Shown here: piece after piece, positions 21,730 through 30,253 of the stretch | Layout: each line of letters starts with the position of its first letter | How positions within the stretch are numbered: position 1 is the stretch's first letter | Origin: Draconibacterium sp. | Lineage (GTDB): Bacteria > Bacteroidota > Bacteroidia > Bacteroidales > Prolixibacteraceae | DNA length: 36,234 bases | Reading direction: 5' to 3' | NCBI GenBank assembly: GCA_011620585.1 | Contig: WOYV01000051.1 | Span: forward strand, 1 to 36,234 | Notes under the pieces: generated by a model | Told to the model about the DNA's origin: nothing | The model's input: only the letters and a program-made list of their open reading frames with translations | The model's database searches: none | Program-made: the position numbers and the translations under genes

Positions 21730-21763
21730 ACTACTTTCGTAGTTAGCAGTAACTACAGGTAGT
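21730..21763. promoter_or_regulatory. Tandem palindromes ACTAC-N-GTAGT between divergent genes
   Basis: ACTAC-TTTC-GTAGT (21730-21743) and ACTAC-AG-GTAGT (21752-21763) share identical half-sites and have centres 21 bp apart, about two helical turns. They lie 37 bp before the regulator ATG and upstream of the divergent -7 box. They are good candidates for autoregulatory binding of the adjacent LuxR-type protein. Confidence 0.55.
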
Positions 21764-25258: not shown

Positions 25259-26509
25259 TTATTCCTCGAAAAACAAATCTTCCCTGAGTTTTTCTATCCG
25301 GTCGAGAGCATAATTAATGTTTTTTCCGCTTTCGCCCGCTTCTGTTAAATATATCTGATAATAGTTTAGCGCCAAGGTTTTATTGGAGTTGAACTCTTCG
25401 TAAGTTGTGGCTATTTCAAACAATACCTCCACTTTCTCTTGATTGAGTTCGAAAGCCTTTTCAAGCGCTGCCACCGATTCCTTAAATTTTCGTTGCTGTC
25501 CGAGAATCTGCCCCAGATGGTGATACATTTCAGCAACATATTCCGGCGTTGATCCGTCAATGGCCCACTGCATCAGTTTTCCGGCCTGTTCAAAATCCTT
25601 GAGCTTTTTATAACATAAACTTTGGTAGTATATTACCAACGGATCGTTTGGATTTTGCGAAAATAAACCATTAAATATTTCCAGTGCTTTCTCCTCAAAT
25701 TCAGCAAAATAGGTAGCAATTCCATAGTTCATGAGAGTTTCATAGCCAGGCTGTTCTTCCAGTTCAAGGTATTTTTCGAAACTAACCATAGCCGGGCCAT
25801 AACGCCTGGTTTTGTAAAGAAACATGGCTTCTTCGTAACGAAGCTCCTGATCGGCAGGAAACTCGTTCAACCCTTTCTGGATCGTCAGCATAATTTGGTT
25901 TCCCTCCTTTTTCCAGTTGTAGCAATTAATCAGGTTGATATACGAAGAATGATCGCGGGGATAAGTTTTTATCACATTCTCGTAGAGCCGGACCGCCTCT
26001 TCGCGTTTGAATACACGAAACGCGCAATATGCGAACTGCTTGTTCCAGAAAACGTTCGACGAATCCTGCGCATAAATCGATGAAAAAACATCGTAGGCTT
26101 TCTGATATGCTTTTTCGTTGATGTAAACCCGCCCTAATTTTCCGGCCAATACCAGATTTTCAGGAGCCAGGGTTCGTGCCTTTTCAAAGAATGCCGCAGC
26201 ATCGGTATTATTGCCTAAAACAGAGAAACATTCCGCCGATTCTTCGAGTAGTGTTACATTGTCAGGTTCCAGGCCAAGCCCTTCAGCGTATGCAGAAAGA
26301 GCATTCTGGTAGTCCTGCAAGCTTTGATAAACTGATCCTTTTTTCAGAAATAAAACAGCAGAAGGTTTCTCTTCAATCTGTTTCTGAATCTCGGTTAATG
26401 CCCGATTGTATTCTTTATTTAAAATAAGAAGATCGATGTTTTGTTGGGCCGATAACAATTTAGGAAAGGCCAACAAAACCAGGATTAACAATCTTAGTGA
26501 AATTCGCAT
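25259..26509 (-). CDS. Exported tetratricopeptide-repeat protein
   Basis: 416 residues with a signal peptide ending LLSAQQ (about residue 21). The rest is a run of about ten TPR units, for instance 'ALSAYAEGLGLEPDN', 'AAFFEKARTLAPENL' and 'AVAALEKAFELNQEK'. TPR arrays bind other proteins; the partner is unknown. The open frame extends to 26611, but that would overlap the upstream gene and delay the signal peptide, so the ATG at 26509 is used. It lies 26 bp after the M56-TonB gene and is likely the last gene of the blaI operon. This suggests a role in the same response (inference). Confidence 0.85.
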   Translation of the reverse strand: MRISLRLLILVLLAFPKLLSAQQNIDLLILNKEYNRALTEIQKQIEEKPSAVLFLKKGSVYQSLQDYQNALSAYAEGLGLEPDNVTLLEESAECFSVLGNNTDAAAFFEKARTLAPENLVLAGKLGRVYINEKAYQKAYDVFSSIYAQDSSNVFWNKQFAYCAFRVFKREEAVRLYENVIKTYPRDHSSYINLINCYNWKKEGNQIMLTIQKGLNEFPADQELRYEEAMFLYKTRRYGPAMVSFEKYLELEEQPGYETLMNYGIATYFAEFEEKALEIFNGLFSQNPNDPLVIYYQSLCYKKLKDFEQAGKLMQWAIDGSTPEYVAEMYHHLGQILGQQRKFKESVAALEKAFELNQEKVEVLFEIATTYEEFNSNKTLALNYYQIYLTEAGESGKNINYALDRIEKLREDLFFEE

Positions 26510-26535
26510 AAAACAAATTCTTGATGTAGTTACTC

Positions 26536-27957
26536 TTATTGCAGAACAAAATTTATCGGTACGGTGTAGCTTACATTTACACTCTGTCCACGTTGCTTGC
26601 CGGGTTTCCACTGCGGAAGGCTGCTTACAACCCGCAAAGCTTCTTTATCAAGCGAAGGATCCACTCCCCTTGCAATTTTGGCATTCGCCACTGTTCCGTC
26701 TTTACTGACTACAAAAGTTACGTAAACTTTTCCCTGAATTCCTTTCTCCTGTGCAATCTCCGGATATTTGATAGCATTAGATATGTATTTCCGTAAAGCC
26801 AAATCGCCACCCGGAAATTCGGGCATGTCTTCAACTATAAAAAATATTTCTTCGCCATCAATTGTTTTTGGTTGGGCAATTTTAGGCTGTGAATCCGGAT
26901 TACTCCAAATGTATGTATTCCCAAGACTATCTTTTGAGATAGTTACATTGCCTGCTTTAAAAATTGCTTCAACTTTTTCCATATCAACATCATCGCCACT
27001 TATTAATAATTTATCGCCATCCACCCTGAGTTGCATATTAGTTGACTTTTCAGATATTGGCATTTCAGCTACTTCTTTTTGCTCGCAGGCAAAGATCACT
27101 ACCAGCAAGATAACGCTCAGCGCGCCAACTACATATTTTAAATTGGCCATTTTTGAAGATTTTATTTTTGAAATCATTTGAATACGTTTTTTTATTAATG
27201 ATGAATTAAAGTTATTGGCTATTTCGAGCTGAAAACCAACAGCCTGGCTCAGCAGAAGTTGTTTATAGTGCAACACATTCATTCCTGTATTTAGTACCGC
27301 ACGGTCGGCCAGGAATTCATGATTTTCACGAATTACTTTTTTCAGGATCCACATAAATGGATTGAACCATTGCAGGATGGTCAATATTTCCAGAATGAGC
27401 ACATCGAAGCTGTGTCCCTGGTGGATGTGTTCCATTTCGTGGGCAACTATTTTACCGTAACCAGGTTCTTCCCTCTTTCCAGGGTTGATAAATACATAAT
27501 TCAGAAACGAAAAAGGACTGAATTCTTTTTTGAGCAAGACAAATTTTACACTGCCGCTTTTTTGCACCGGGTTCCGGTGGATCAATACAGCAATTTGCGC
27601 CAATCGAATCATGAATAGTATGGTAAATATAAACAAGCCTGTTAAGTAGAGCATCACTATTACGCGGCTCGAGCTAATAGTTTGAATAATGGTTCCTGAA
27701 AAATCCTGTCCGTAAATGGTAATCGCTTCCACCAGGTTACGGTATTGGGTAACCGTTACTTCGGGTAGCAAAACCGATTGAGGCTGGTAAACCCTGAAAT
27801 GCAGAAATGGAAGCATGATCGAGAAAGCTACTGAAATAAGCAAAAAGATGCGGTTGAGCCGAAAAAAGGTCTCACGGCGCAGGAATAAAATGTAAATCAG
27901 CGACAATAACGCCAAACTGACTCCCGATTCGAGCAGAAAATTAATCGCGCTGTTCAT
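26536..27957 (-). CDS. M56 (BlaR1/MecR1-type) membrane peptidase fused to a TonB C-terminal domain
   Basis: 473 residues. Membrane helices near 5-25, 35-52, 100-120 and 275-293 surround the M56 zinc peptidase, with HEMEH at 173-177 (followed by IHQGHSFD) and Glu214 in RENHEFLADRAV. In BlaR1/MecR1 the peptidase inactivates the cognate BlaI/MecI repressor. Here the sensor domain is replaced by a linker and a TonB_C domain (about 374-473, starting EFPGGD and ending PINFVLQ) on the outside. The gene overlaps blaI by 17 bp (ATG at 27957; a second ATG at 27963 and a TTG at 27987 are less likely). The TonB_C domain is about 64% identical to that of the 28475-29164 protein. Confidence 0.9.
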   Translation of the reverse strand: MNSAINFLLESGVSLALLSLIYILFLRRETFFRLNRIFLLISVAFSIMLPFLHFRVYQPQSVLLPEVTVTQYRNLVEAITIYGQDFSGTIIQTISSSRVIVMLYLTGLFIFTILFMIRLAQIAVLIHRNPVQKSGSVKFVLLKKEFSPFSFLNYVFINPGKREEPGYGKIVAHEMEHIHQGHSFDVLILEILTILQWFNPFMWILKKVIRENHEFLADRAVLNTGMNVLHYKQLLLSQAVGFQLEIANNFNSSLIKKRIQMISKIKSSKMANLKYVVGALSVILLVVIFACEQKEVAEMPISEKSTNMQLRVDGDKLLISGDDVDMEKVEAIFKAGNVTISKDSLGNTYIWSNPDSQPKIAQPKTIDGEEIFFIVEDMPEFPGGDLALRKYISNAIKYPEIAQEKGIQGKVYVTFVVSKDGTVANAKIARGVDPSLDKEALRVVSSLPQWKPGKQRGQSVNVSYTVPINFVLQ

Positions 27958-28336
27958 CTTCATTCTGGTTTTGATTTTCAATATCACGTTTTACGTCTTC
28001 CAGCATTTCATCCAAATCGGAAACGCTCATATTGTCCTCACGTGCAAAGAATGAAACCATCTCCTGGAAAGAACCACTAAAATAATTACGCATGAAGTTT
28101 TTCATAAACAAACGCGTGTAGTCTTTTCGTTTTATCAACGGAAAGTATTCGTGTGTTTTTCCGTAAGCATTGTGACCTACAAATCCTTTCTTCTCAAGGA
28201 TTCTGATAATTGTGGAAACAGTATTATAAGCCGGTTTCGGATCAGGCATTTTTTCCACTATGTCTTTAACAAAAGCTTTTTCAAGCTTCCAGAGCAACTG
28301 CATTACCTGTTCCTCCGCTTTAGTCAGTTCTTTCAT
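27941..28336 (-). CDS. blaI: BlaI/MecI/CopY-family transcriptional repressor
   Basis: 131 residues. A winged helix-turn-helix occupies about 1-80: 'LTKAEEQVMQLLWKLEKAFV', then 'KPAYNTVSTIIRILEKKGFV' with the recognition helix. The C-terminal part (about 85-131) forms the dimerisation region and ends in a glutamate/asparagine-rich tail. BlaI proteins repress their own operon and are cleaved or released when the partner M56 peptidase is activated. The gene overlaps the M56 gene. Two 14-bp palindromes sit upstream, one over the expected -33 region of its -7 box, which fits autorepression. Confidence 0.92.
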   Translation of the reverse strand: MKELTKAEEQVMQLLWKLEKAFVKDIVEKMPDPKPAYNTVSTIIRILEKKGFVGHNAYGKTHEYFPLIKRKDYTRLFMKNFMRNYFSGSFQEMVSFFAREDNMSVSDLDEMLEDVKRDIENQNQNEDEQRD

Positions 28337-28398
28337 TTCTTTTATTTCTTTACTTGTTCTGTCGATATTTTAGATGGATCGACTAATACTATTTTATA

Positions 28399-28406
28399 CA
28401 AAAATA
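28399..28406 (-). promoter_or_regulatory. blaI promoter -7 box TATTTTTG
   Basis: Exact TAnnTTTG on the minus strand, 62 bp upstream of the blaI ATG. The first operator (28425-28438) covers where the -33 element should lie. Confidence 0.6.
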
Positions 28407-28424
28407 GGAAAACCATTATTAAAA

Positions 28425-28458
28425 ACTAAATATATAGTTAAAAAACTACATTTTTAGT
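28425..28458. promoter_or_regulatory. Two BlaI-type operators upstream of blaI
   Basis: ACTAAATATATAGT (28425-28438) and ACTACATTTTTAGT (28445-28458) share ACTA-N6-TAGT and have centres exactly 20 bp apart. The spacing would place two dimers on the same DNA face. The same 14-mer pattern recurs three times upstream of the tonB-like gene. Confidence 0.8.
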
Positions 28459-28474
28459 TTAAATAATTCATTTT

Positions 28475-29164
28475 CTATTGTAGCTGAAAATTAATTACCG
28501 CGGTATAATACACCTGAACTGGTTTACCTCTTTGTTTTCCGGGTTTAAACCTGGGTAAACTATTAATTACCCGTAACGCCTCCCTGTCGAGCGATGGATC
28601 AACGGGGCGGCTAACTTCAGCACTAACCGCCTTGCCTTCACGATTGACAACAAATTTTACGTACACTTTCCCCTGGATTCCATTTTCCTGTGCAATTACC
28701 GGGTACTTTACGTTGTCGTGAATATATTTGTACAAAGCCCTGTCTCCTCCCGGAAACTCTGCCGGTTCTTCAATTATATTAAAGAAAATCTGTTCTTCTT
28801 CCTCTTCTTCTTCCTGCGTTTCGATTACCGGCGCCACATCGATAAGCGTATTTTCATCCGCTTCAGAATCCTCAATTTCCAATTCATTCTCAATAACCAC
28901 ATCATTGTCAACAATATTTAGCATTTCAACAACTTTTGGAGGTGGCGGAGGTGGCGGAGGTTTAATCTCTTGTTCGCGGGTAACCGGAATTATTTCTTCT
29001 TCAACATCCCGGGCCTGAATTGCGCCCAGCGATTCGGCTTTTGAAGGGCTTGATTTCCATTCGAATGCAGCCAGGGCAACTCCCAAAGCCACAACCAATC
29101 CCAACAGAAAAAACATATTTCTCATTTTTTCGAGATCGGCTTTTTGCGATTTTTTTAGTTCCAT
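28475..29164 (-). CDS. TonB-family energy transducer
   Basis: 229 residues: a short cytoplasmic start, one membrane helix (about 17-35), a proline run (PPPPPPPP, near 68-76), a very acidic linker with six consecutive glutamates, and a TonB_C domain (about 131-229) starting EFPGGDRALYKYI and ending INFQLQ. TonB proteins couple the proton-motive force to outer-membrane receptors through ExbB/ExbD, neither of which is in the window. The C-terminal domain is close to that of the M56 fusion protein. It ends 138 bp upstream of blaI and has its own operator set, so it is probably a second unit of the same regulon. Confidence 0.92.
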   Translation of the reverse strand: MELKKSQKADLEKMRNMFFLLGLVVALGVALAAFEWKSSPSKAESLGAIQARDVEEEIIPVTREQEIKPPPPPPPPKVVEMLNIVDNDVVIENELEIEDSEADENTLIDVAPVIETQEEEEEEEQIFFNIIEEPAEFPGGDRALYKYIHDNVKYPVIAQENGIQGKVYVKFVVNREGKAVSAEVSRPVDPSLDREALRVINSLPRFKPGKQRGKPVQVYYTAVINFQLQ

Positions 29165-29267
29165 AAATTTTTAGTTTTTAGATTAAACACTCCTTTTTTT
29201 GTTCTGATGAAACCATTATTTTCTTTTCATCGAATTTTTTTTCATCTAACCTTGTTAAATACGATTA

Positions 29268-29301
29268 ACTAAACAATTAGTCTTTTAACTAATTATTTAG
29301 T
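29268..29301. promoter_or_regulatory. Two BlaI-type operators upstream of the tonB-like gene
   Basis: ACTAAACAATTAGT (29268-29281) and ACTAATTATTTAGT (29288-29301), centres again exactly 20 bp apart. Half-sites are identical to those upstream of blaI. Confidence 0.8.
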
Positions 29302-29351
29302 TCATAAAATCACAAACATCATACCAATCTCAATTATTGAAAATTAAATCA

Positions 29352-29365
29352 ACTAATTACTTAGT
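29352..29365. promoter_or_regulatory. Third BlaI-type operator of the tonB-like gene
   Basis: ACTAATTACTTAGT, the closest to the consensus ACTAA-N4-TTAGT. Its centre is 64 bp upstream of its nearest neighbour, a possible DNA-looping distance. Confidence 0.7.
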
Positions 29366-29485
29366 TGAGGCTAAGAATATTTTTGGAGATGCCATTGACA
29401 GATAATATGATAACAAGAAAACAGAGTGATAAATTTGTTCCGCGATCTTAAAAATATGAAGTAGCGTTTTCCCGATGGAGGTTGA

Positions 29486-30253
29486 TCAGAGCACGTTAAA
29501 TCGGTCGCGATCGTTTAATAACGGAAAAGATTTTCGGAATTTATGTAAGTCTTCGTACGATATTTCAAAGGTCTGGGCACTTTCGCTTTCATTCATAAAA
29601 TCAGCAAAACCTTTGGGTGAAACACAGGCCGAACCTCCCAGGTAGTTTAAGCCTGCTCCATCCGACCCAGTTCGGTTGACGCCCACACAGTAGCACTGGT
29701 TTTCAATTGCCCGGGCAACCAACAGGTTTTTCCAAACGTGGTGGCGCGGCGACGGCCAGTTGGCCATATAAACCAGCAGGTCATAATCTTCTGTATTTCG
29801 CGCCCACACCGGGAAACGCAGATCGTAACAAATCAACGGACAGATTTTCCAACCCCGGTATTCCACAATAGTCTTAAATTTTCCGGGTGAATAATGTTCC
29901 GTCTCCTGCCCCATCGTATACAAATGCCTTTTATCGTATGTTTCCATATTTCCATCAGGAAAAACAAACAAGGCGCGATTGTACATACTGTCGTTTTCTT
30001 CAATAATCAGGCTACCCAAAACTGCTGCATCATTTTTGCCCGCCATCTTCTTCATCCAGTTAACAGCGCGGCCATTCATGTTTTCTTTTAATATTTCAGG
30101 CTTCATCGAAAAGCCCGTGGTAAACATTTCAGGCAAGATAATCAGATCGGTATCTTCCAATACTTCAAGCATTTTTGAATACTTTTCCAGGTTAGCTTCC
30201 GGGTTTTCCCAGATAATATCCGGTTGGATGATTGTTACTTTCAGATTTTTCAT
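29486..30253 (-). CDS. Omega-amidase / nitrilase-superfamily amidohydrolase (YafV-like)
   Basis: 255 residues with the carbon-nitrogen hydrolase triad: Glu42 (ILPEMFTTGFS), Lys108 (TYDKRHLY) and Cys142 (PLICYDLRFPVW). The 'EMFTTGFSM' and 'CYDLRFPVWARN' blocks point to the YafV/Nit2 omega-amidase branch, which hydrolyses 2-oxoglutaramate or 2-oxosuccinamate formed as transamination by-products and also proofreads deaminated glutathione. It lies 48 bp downstream of the alcohol dehydrogenase gene and may be cotranscribed. No terminator is evident after it. Confidence 0.9.
   Translation of the reverse strand: MKNLKVTIIQPDIIWENPEANLEKYSKMLEVLEDTDLIILPEMFTTGFSMKPEILKENMNGRAVNWMKKMAGKNDAAVLGSLIIEENDSMYNRALFVFPDGNMETYDKRHLYTMGQETEHYSPGKFKTIVEYRGWKICPLICYDLRFPVWARNTEDYDLLVYMANWPSPRHHVWKNLLVARAIENQCYCVGVNRTGSDGAGLNYLGGSACVSPKGFADFMNESESAQTFEISYEDLHKFRKSFPLLNDRDRFNVL

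Follow-up and report, generated by a model that had tools for sequence, protein, structure and literature searches.

In the bla and mec divergons of Staphylococcus aureus and Bacillus licheniformis, a repressor of the PF03965 family (BlaI or MecI) is encoded beside an M56 protein and dyad operators lie in its own promoter (PMC5341023, in the portion available); the operator consensus, quoted from Garcia-Castellanos 2004 in the Figure 2 legend of that article, is [A/G]NATTACA[A/T]NTGTA[A/G][T/G]NT. The BlaI of beta-lactam induction is said, in the available part of PMC3305447, to be cleaved at the N101-F102 bond. For the C. thermocellum repressors BlaI_1845 and BlaI_0696, DAP-seq and gel shifts gave the half-sites GACTAT and GTCTAT, with paired inverted repeats upstream of their own operons, very small regulons and motifs specific to each paralog (PMC8457756, available text). 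CopY/CopR belongs to the same repressor family and has two operators before the pneumococcal cop operon with the consensus RNYKACANNTGTMRNY; CopY needs KACA..TGTM (PMC7253601, available text). Among the open-licence papers listed by our searches we found no description of a BlaI operator from Bacteroidota.

Here we describe a BlaI locus in a stretch of 36,234 nucleotides from Draconibacterium sp. (contig WOYV01000051.1 of assembly GCA_011620585.1), hereafter the window, which corresponds to contig C94 of the source genome G000 (3.94 Mb, 132 contigs). Judged by its sequence, the window system is of this known kind of regulator and operator, in a variant that appears to be common across the phylum, keeps a fixed promoter register and has, in the genus, a predicted TonB-type target. 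Like the bla and mec divergons it has a PF03965 repressor beside an M56 protein and own-promoter dyads; unlike them, its M56 protein carries TonB_C instead of a penicillin-binding sensor, and the neighbouring candidate target is TonB-like. A first-pass annotation of the window had held that the half-site differs from the TACA-TGTA core of described operators. This is right for the inner CA/TG, which is lost (the TACA-N2-TGTA core occurs in none of the five window sites, and its left arm only at 28445), but the outer arms (ATTA and TA(A/G)(T/G)) and the 14-bp frame of the MecI operator, as given in the PMC5341023 legend, are kept. The CopY consensus has the dyad frame in common with these operators, but the ACTA arms differ from what CopY needs. 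Paired dyads upstream of the repressor's own operon, a very small regulon and paralog-specific motifs are shared with C. thermocellum, which differs in being a Firmicute with BlaR1. Because a C. thermocellum BlaI reads GACTAT and both BlaI proteins studied there have paired dyads, neither ACTA nor the pairing is unprecedented (PMC8457756, available text).

Repressor, protease and TonB-like gene

The features of the locus are collected in Table 1. The repressor scored 114.9 bits against PF03965 (Penicillinase_R; curated cut-off 22.6), and a profile of it with 14 relatives matched the solved structures 1sd6 and 1okr/1sax (3e-17) and 1sd4 (2.6e-11); putative dyad operators in its own promoter, as in the rest of the family, were found on sequence. 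Against TIGR02698 (CopY) it reached 44.9 bits, below the cut-off of 121.95, and, its translation being free of cysteine, it has no CopY-type Cys-X-Cys metal site. The scissile N101-F102 bond aligns with Phe96-Phe97 of the window protein, a pair that is invariant in the 14 aligned relatives and is not Asn-Phe. The M56 domain of the adjacent protein scored 46.6 bits against PF05569 (cut-off 31) and has the HExxH motif as HEMEH, as expected of a BlaR1/MecR1-type peptidase; in a Pfam search at E 0.001 only M56 and TonB_C were found in this protein, and no penicillin-binding domain. Because its TonB_C domain is so close to that of the TonB-like gene (64% identity) and replaces the BlaR1 sensor, we propose that the sensor protease may read a TonB-related or envelope signal.

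Table 1. Features of the blaI/tonB locus, in window coordinates.
Feature	Position	Strand	Basis
TPR protein, next gene past the M56 gene	25259..26611	-	domain search; start codon uncertain
M56 metallopeptidase, HEMEH, C-terminal TonB_C	26536..27987	-	PF05569, PF03544, translation; start codon uncertain
blaI, 131-aa repressor, PF03965, recognition helix PAYNTVSTIIRIL (Ala36-Thr42 region), no cysteine	27941..28336	-	Pfam 114.9 bits; MecI/BlaI structure matches
Predicted -7 box TATTTTTG, blaI promoter	28399..28406	-	fits TAnnTTTG; consensus from PMC7366714 (available text)
Putative BlaI operator, promoter-proximal, blaI pair	28425..28438	.	exact ACTA-N6-TAGT match; pair in same place in genus; covers predicted -33 of blaI promoter
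Putative BlaI operator, distal, blaI pair	28445..28458	.	exact match; 20-bp pair conserved; + strand left arm is ACTACA
TonB-like gene	28475..29164	-	TonB_C domain shares 64% identity over 105 aa with the one in the M56 protein
Putative BlaI operator, promoter-proximal, tonB pair	29268..29281	.	exact match; pair conserved
Putative BlaI operator, distal, tonB pair	29288..29301	.	exact match; pair conserved
Third, unpaired site upstream of the TonB-like gene	29352..29365	.	exact match; 64 bp from tonB pair

Paired dyads in the source genome and the genus

The five ACTA-N6-TAGT 14-mers reported at 28425, 28445, 29268, 29288 and 29352 are all exactly placed, and the spacing of exactly 20 bp within both pairs was confirmed on the sequence. 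The accompanying statement that such sites occur, as far as the sequence had been read, only upstream of blaI and the TonB-like gene does not hold, since a sixth exact 14-mer, unpaired and intergenic, was found at 21730-21743, 57 bp upstream of a 316-aa ORF. The whole window thus contains 6 exact 14-mers against 0.17 expected from dinucleotide shuffles (maximum 2 among 100), and two intergenic stretches (138 and 321 bp) contain 5; of 5000 dinucleotide shuffles of these stretches, 4952 had no match and 48 had a single one. A chance origin of the five sites was ruled out by these shuffles together with the conservation in the genus given below.

In a scan of the whole genome for the exact 14-mer, single sites are at chance level: 21 exact 14-mers were counted in the source genome, near the ~18.5 scaled from the window shuffle rate (0.17 per 36,234 bases), so that single 14-mers elsewhere need no special cause, with the exception of two (of the 16 outside the set at 28425-29365) that immediately precede another blaI paralog, on contig C99. 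The specific signal is the 20-bp pair, which occurs twice in the source genome, both times at the window blaI/tonB locus. A wide regulon in this genome was considered and rejected: once the five sites of this locus and the two preceding the C99 blaI are taken off the 21, the 14 that remain, whose contexts were read in part, fit the chance rate.

For the genus, 37 genomes (the source genome included) were searched with a pair pattern that allowed A or C as first base and T or G as last base, and orthologs of the window blaI (at least 78% identity) were found in 34 of them. The expectation that the pair would be conserved upstream of orthologous blaI genes was borne out: the pattern was present in 33 of the 34 genomes with an ortholog and in 0 of the 3 without (G012, which is only 73% complete, G024 and G036), and the reversed control pattern gave no matches. 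Two pairs were found in 30 genomes and one in 3 (G001, G019, G027), and all 63 pairs lie on the same contig as the blaI ortholog, at most 2 kb away. In G008, which has the ortholog, the pair is recognisable but degenerate, and G027 retains the distal pair with none directly before blaI. One clade of the genus spells the blaI pair CCTA-N6-TAGT / ACTA-N6-TAGG. In 7 of the 11 genus loci whose sequence covers the distal pair (the window counted), the third site recurs as an exact match 61-64 bp from that pair, a distance of some six helical turns. The genus locus table holds 30 loci, in three of which (L049, L064, L065) the blaI start is unplaced; between the two pairs of L063 (G026) there is no gene of at least 100 aa.

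Distribution beyond the genus

With the operator pattern as the sole query, exact 20-bp pairs were found in 51 of 296 class genomes, against 1 with the control pattern. A BlaI frame follows downstream in 27 of the 29 class-search loci inspected (one locus per genome, 50 other genomes having matched) and in 5 of 6 order-level loci outside the genus, so that in 32 of these 35 loci BlaI starts 13-132 bp downstream of the pair; a 33rd is L069, where by eye the contig ends inside a blaI start. Working from the protein, a PF03965 search of 60 class genomes recovered a full BlaI (E < 1e-20) in 13, of which 7 have exact pairs and 6 do not, versus 0 of the 47 others.

A further set consisted of the best 80 of 586 BlaI relatives, chosen with AY-type protein patterns. 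Among these 80, an exact site lies within 250 bp upstream in 67 (none in the other 13), an exact 20-bp pair in 38 and a pair with at most one mismatch in 51; single-base shuffles of the 80 loci gave 0.68 with a site and 0 with either kind of pair, and dinucleotide shuffles gave 0.55 with a site and 0 with an exact pair. A distance of 20 bp was the commonest site spacing (42 cases, the runner-up having 5), and some loci have longer rows of sites at the same pitch, for example five sites in L125. The nearest named relative of the window BlaI among the best 80 of 586 is 84% identical and comes from a MAG (L197). Exact pairs occur in Pontibacter, Rufibacter, Mangrovibacterium, Prolixibacter and an Alistipes MAG, and also in MAGs labelled Chlorobiota, Ignavibacteriae and Aminicenantes.

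Some pairs outside the genus have other neighbours. In L126 (G350:C2) an exact pair lies, by eye, between two TonB-like genes, and in L228 (Labilibaculum) a one-mismatch pair precedes a TonB-like gene; together they suggest, at the level of gene order and sites, recurrent BlaI control of TonB-type genes. At L123 (G310:C45), L246 and L268 the gene behind the pair is neither a blaI nor a tonB; by eye, the three appear to encode an ABC permease-like, a lipoprotein-like and a 459-aa protein, which are possible further BlaI targets.

Register of the pairs with promoter boxes

The sigma-ABfr promoter consensus has TAnnTTTG at -7 and TTTG near -33 (PMC7366714, available text). The claim that one site covers the -33 region of the blaI promoter stands as a consensus prediction only: TATTTTTG at 28406-28399 of the minus strand would be the -7 box, which places the 28425 site over -33. 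A sigma-70 promoter scan found 3 against 3.5 expected, in line with this phylum. The comparison across loci used 83 distinct BlaI-side pairs, with duplicates removed, the pair nearest the gene used and pattern-found loci included. TAnnTTTG starts exactly 2 bp past the pair in 39 of the 83 and 0-3 bp past it in 46, versus 0.18% of shuffles (single-base composition), an NTTG at an 18-21 bp spacer was found in 40, and no TAnnTTTG was found nearby in 33.

The TonB_C-side set was made up of the distinct pair contexts of L038-L067, L074-L097 and the window, contexts without a BlaI or TonB_C frame downstream being dropped. Seventeen distinct contexts are followed by a TonB_C-domain gene (HMM), of which 10 are membrane-anchored TonB-like by their N-termini (three by eye) and 7 are short or secreted. 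In 16 of the 17, TTTG straddles the end of the first site and TAnnTTTG begins 2 bp past the second, so that the second site fills the promoter spacer. The sole exception is the window tonB promoter, in which no -33/-7 boxes were found in that register. As far as the consensus boxes predict, the operator pair is built into the promoter in relatives, and a pair of dimers seated on the promoter core at a distance of two turns would form a natural occlusion device.

These data bear on how far the control extends. It could be that only the autoregulation of blaI is real and that the distal sites reflect nearby position or shared ancestry, the TonB-type gene not being controlled; the variable content of downstream genes in relatives and the lack of canonical boxes at the source-genome tonB promoter would fit this. 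We consider it unlikely, given that two pairs are present in 30 of the 37 genus genomes, that the boxes wrap the second site in nearly all TonB_C-side pairs, and that TonB-like neighbours recur outside the genus (the one-mismatch pair of Labilibaculum and the exact pair of G350).

Paralogs and their operators

The source genome has three full BlaI genes, on contigs C94 (the window), C98 and C99. Paralogs of the C98 type (L027:6640-6740; L108-L116) have ACTG-N6-CAGT upstream at a 20-bp pitch, in tandem in most loci, and those of the C99 type have TACTAT..ATAGTA-like sites. The C99-type blaI promoter of relatives (L098-L107) appears to have a row of four sites at offsets 0, 20, 40 and 54 (by eye, L105), with the middle sites off at one base, and the source-genome C99 promoter (L026:6700-6775) has exact sites 54 bp apart.

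The window sites might belong to, or be shared with, another paralog (C99 or C98), which would make the circuit cross-regulated and not private. The C99 paralog does have ACTA-N6-TAGT sites upstream as well, and its recognition helix resembles that of the window protein (AYTTVAT vs AYNTVST). The flanking bases differ, however: in the genus pairs (L038-L067) all 80 sites have an A in front of the 14-mer (75 A/T, 5 A/C), whereas all 22 sites of C99-type promoters (L098-L107, L026) have T/A flanks. C98-type promoters carry ACTG-N6-CAGT, not ACTA, and genome G036 has kept a C99-like BlaI with its sites (L104), yet has neither a C94-type ortholog nor pairs. We therefore regard a shared or foreign repressor as distinctly unlikely, and the private BlaI of the locus as the preferred one.

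We then tabulated recognition helices against upstream operators for 164 distinct proteins, leaving out the pattern-found loci L068-L097 and L118-L148 and dropping identical proteins and loci with less than 100 bp upstream. AY-type helices (AYNT, AYTT and similar) go with ACTA in 97 of 128 cases (about 30 of these 128 rows being orthologs from one genus), with ACTG in 0, with a TACGA-type site in 1 and with CTACA in 1. The (P/H)YNTxSS helices go with ACTG in 11 of 13 (ACTA 1), PYTTxAS and GYTT(T/I)LK helices each with TACGA-type sites in 5 of 5, ATTT-like helices with CTACA in 3 of 4 (ACTA 1) and His-type helices with ST or AT at the end with ACTA in 1 of 4; among 5 other helices there were ACTA 1 and CTACA 1. 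For xYNT helices sorted by residue 42 (window numbering), Thr was accompanied by ACTA in 85 of 114 and by ACTG in 0, and Ser by ACTG in 11 of 14 and by ACTA in 2; because most Ser cases are one orthologous group, this represents few independent Thr/Ser events. Exact ACTG pairs were found by pattern in 2 of the 296 class genomes, both beside BlaI. In L153, L172, L178-L182, L187, L192 and L193, PYTTxAS or GYTT(T/I)LK repressors stand behind TACGAA-N3/4-TTCGTA or ACGAC-type palindromes. We rejected the idea that residue 36 (Ala/His/Pro) alone sets the specificity: in a table that combines pattern-found with protein-found loci, made with the same exclusion of identical proteins and short upstream sequences, His-type ST/AT helices still have ACTA in 13 of 16 cases, mostly ACTA-pattern loci, and in the table without pattern-found loci these helices had exact ACTA in the 1 of 4 given above and ACTG in 0. 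On these associations, BlaI paralogs with different recognition helices seem to go with different operators (ACTA, ACTG, TACGA, CTACA).

Folding of the pairs

It is highly improbable that the two palindromes of a pair serve to fold together, as an RNA hairpin or a terminator of transcription, and are not a protein site: both window pairs fold well as RNA (z -4.9, -6.2), the two CCTA-type pairs folded, those of L041 and L056, have a longer stem followed by U-rich sequence (z -6.0, -4.9) and the genus blaI pairs have a small excess of N6 complementarity, 3.28 vs 2.83 of 6 (6 of 2000 permutations as high), but two copies of one palindrome can inevitably pair, relatedness could be the cause of the genus excess, the values for 92 class pairs (2.63 vs 2.56; 525 of 2000 permutations as high) and 9 tonB pairs (3.22 vs 3.40; 1580 of 2000) speak against it, the -7 box, where found, is mostly just downstream of the pair, and no terminator-like site was found in 28300-29500. 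In L041, L043-L047, L053, L056 and L058 the CCTA-type pair forms part of an extended inverted repeat (mostly ACTGTACC..GGTACAGT) with TTTTTG behind it, and directly follows the stop of a TonB_C-type gene; the CCTA-type pair might double as a terminator.

Proposed circuit

The five sites are, very probably, operators of the BlaI encoded at 27941-28336, in an M56 antirepressor circuit over blaI-M56-TPR and the TonB-like gene. Co-control of the TonB unit with the blaI operon, as first suggested for this locus, agrees with our results: the sites are most likely BlaI operators common to both units, as the pairs track the blaI ortholog (33/34 vs 0/3), sit in the promoter and precede a TonB_C gene in 17 contexts. 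Conservation of the pair with blaI and its promoter placement support both autoregulation and TonB control, as predictions from sequence.

From the sites, their pairing and conservation, the promoter register in relatives, the tracking with the blaI ortholog and the domain make-up, all of which are read from the DNA, we infer BlaI binding, repression, inactivation of BlaI by M56 and the signal as follows. A BlaI dimer would bind each 14-bp dyad, and two dimers two helical turns apart, on one DNA face, would lie over the promoter core. BlaI would in this way repress blaI-M56-TPR (autoregulation) and the upstream TonB-like gene too. The M56 protease would be the antirepressor, activated by a periplasmic signal through its TonB_C domain; activated M56 would lead to inactivation of BlaI, and both units would be induced together. 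Such a circuit may adjust TonB-type output.

Significance

As a broader and more tentative proposal, which we hold somewhat short of an even chance, Bacteroidota may operate several insulated BlaI circuits in parallel, with paralogs reading ACTA, ACTG, TACGA or CTACA half-sites (the residue-42 change from Thr to Ser going with that from ACTA to ACTG), in many cases on a lattice of 20 bp that is fixed in register with the -33/-7 promoter; the window circuit would be a homeostat for TonB, its sensor protease and its target gene both carrying TonB_C. For BlaI/M56 systems of Bacteroidota the analysis provides a rule on operator and promoter that can be tested, and by which the genes controlled by such a system can now be proposed from sequence alone. 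The predicted link between a TonB-type gene and a BlaR1-like protease that lacks the penicillin sensor makes M56-TonB_C sensing directly testable, and the natural paralogs with different operators offer material on how a small repressor family diversified its reading of DNA.
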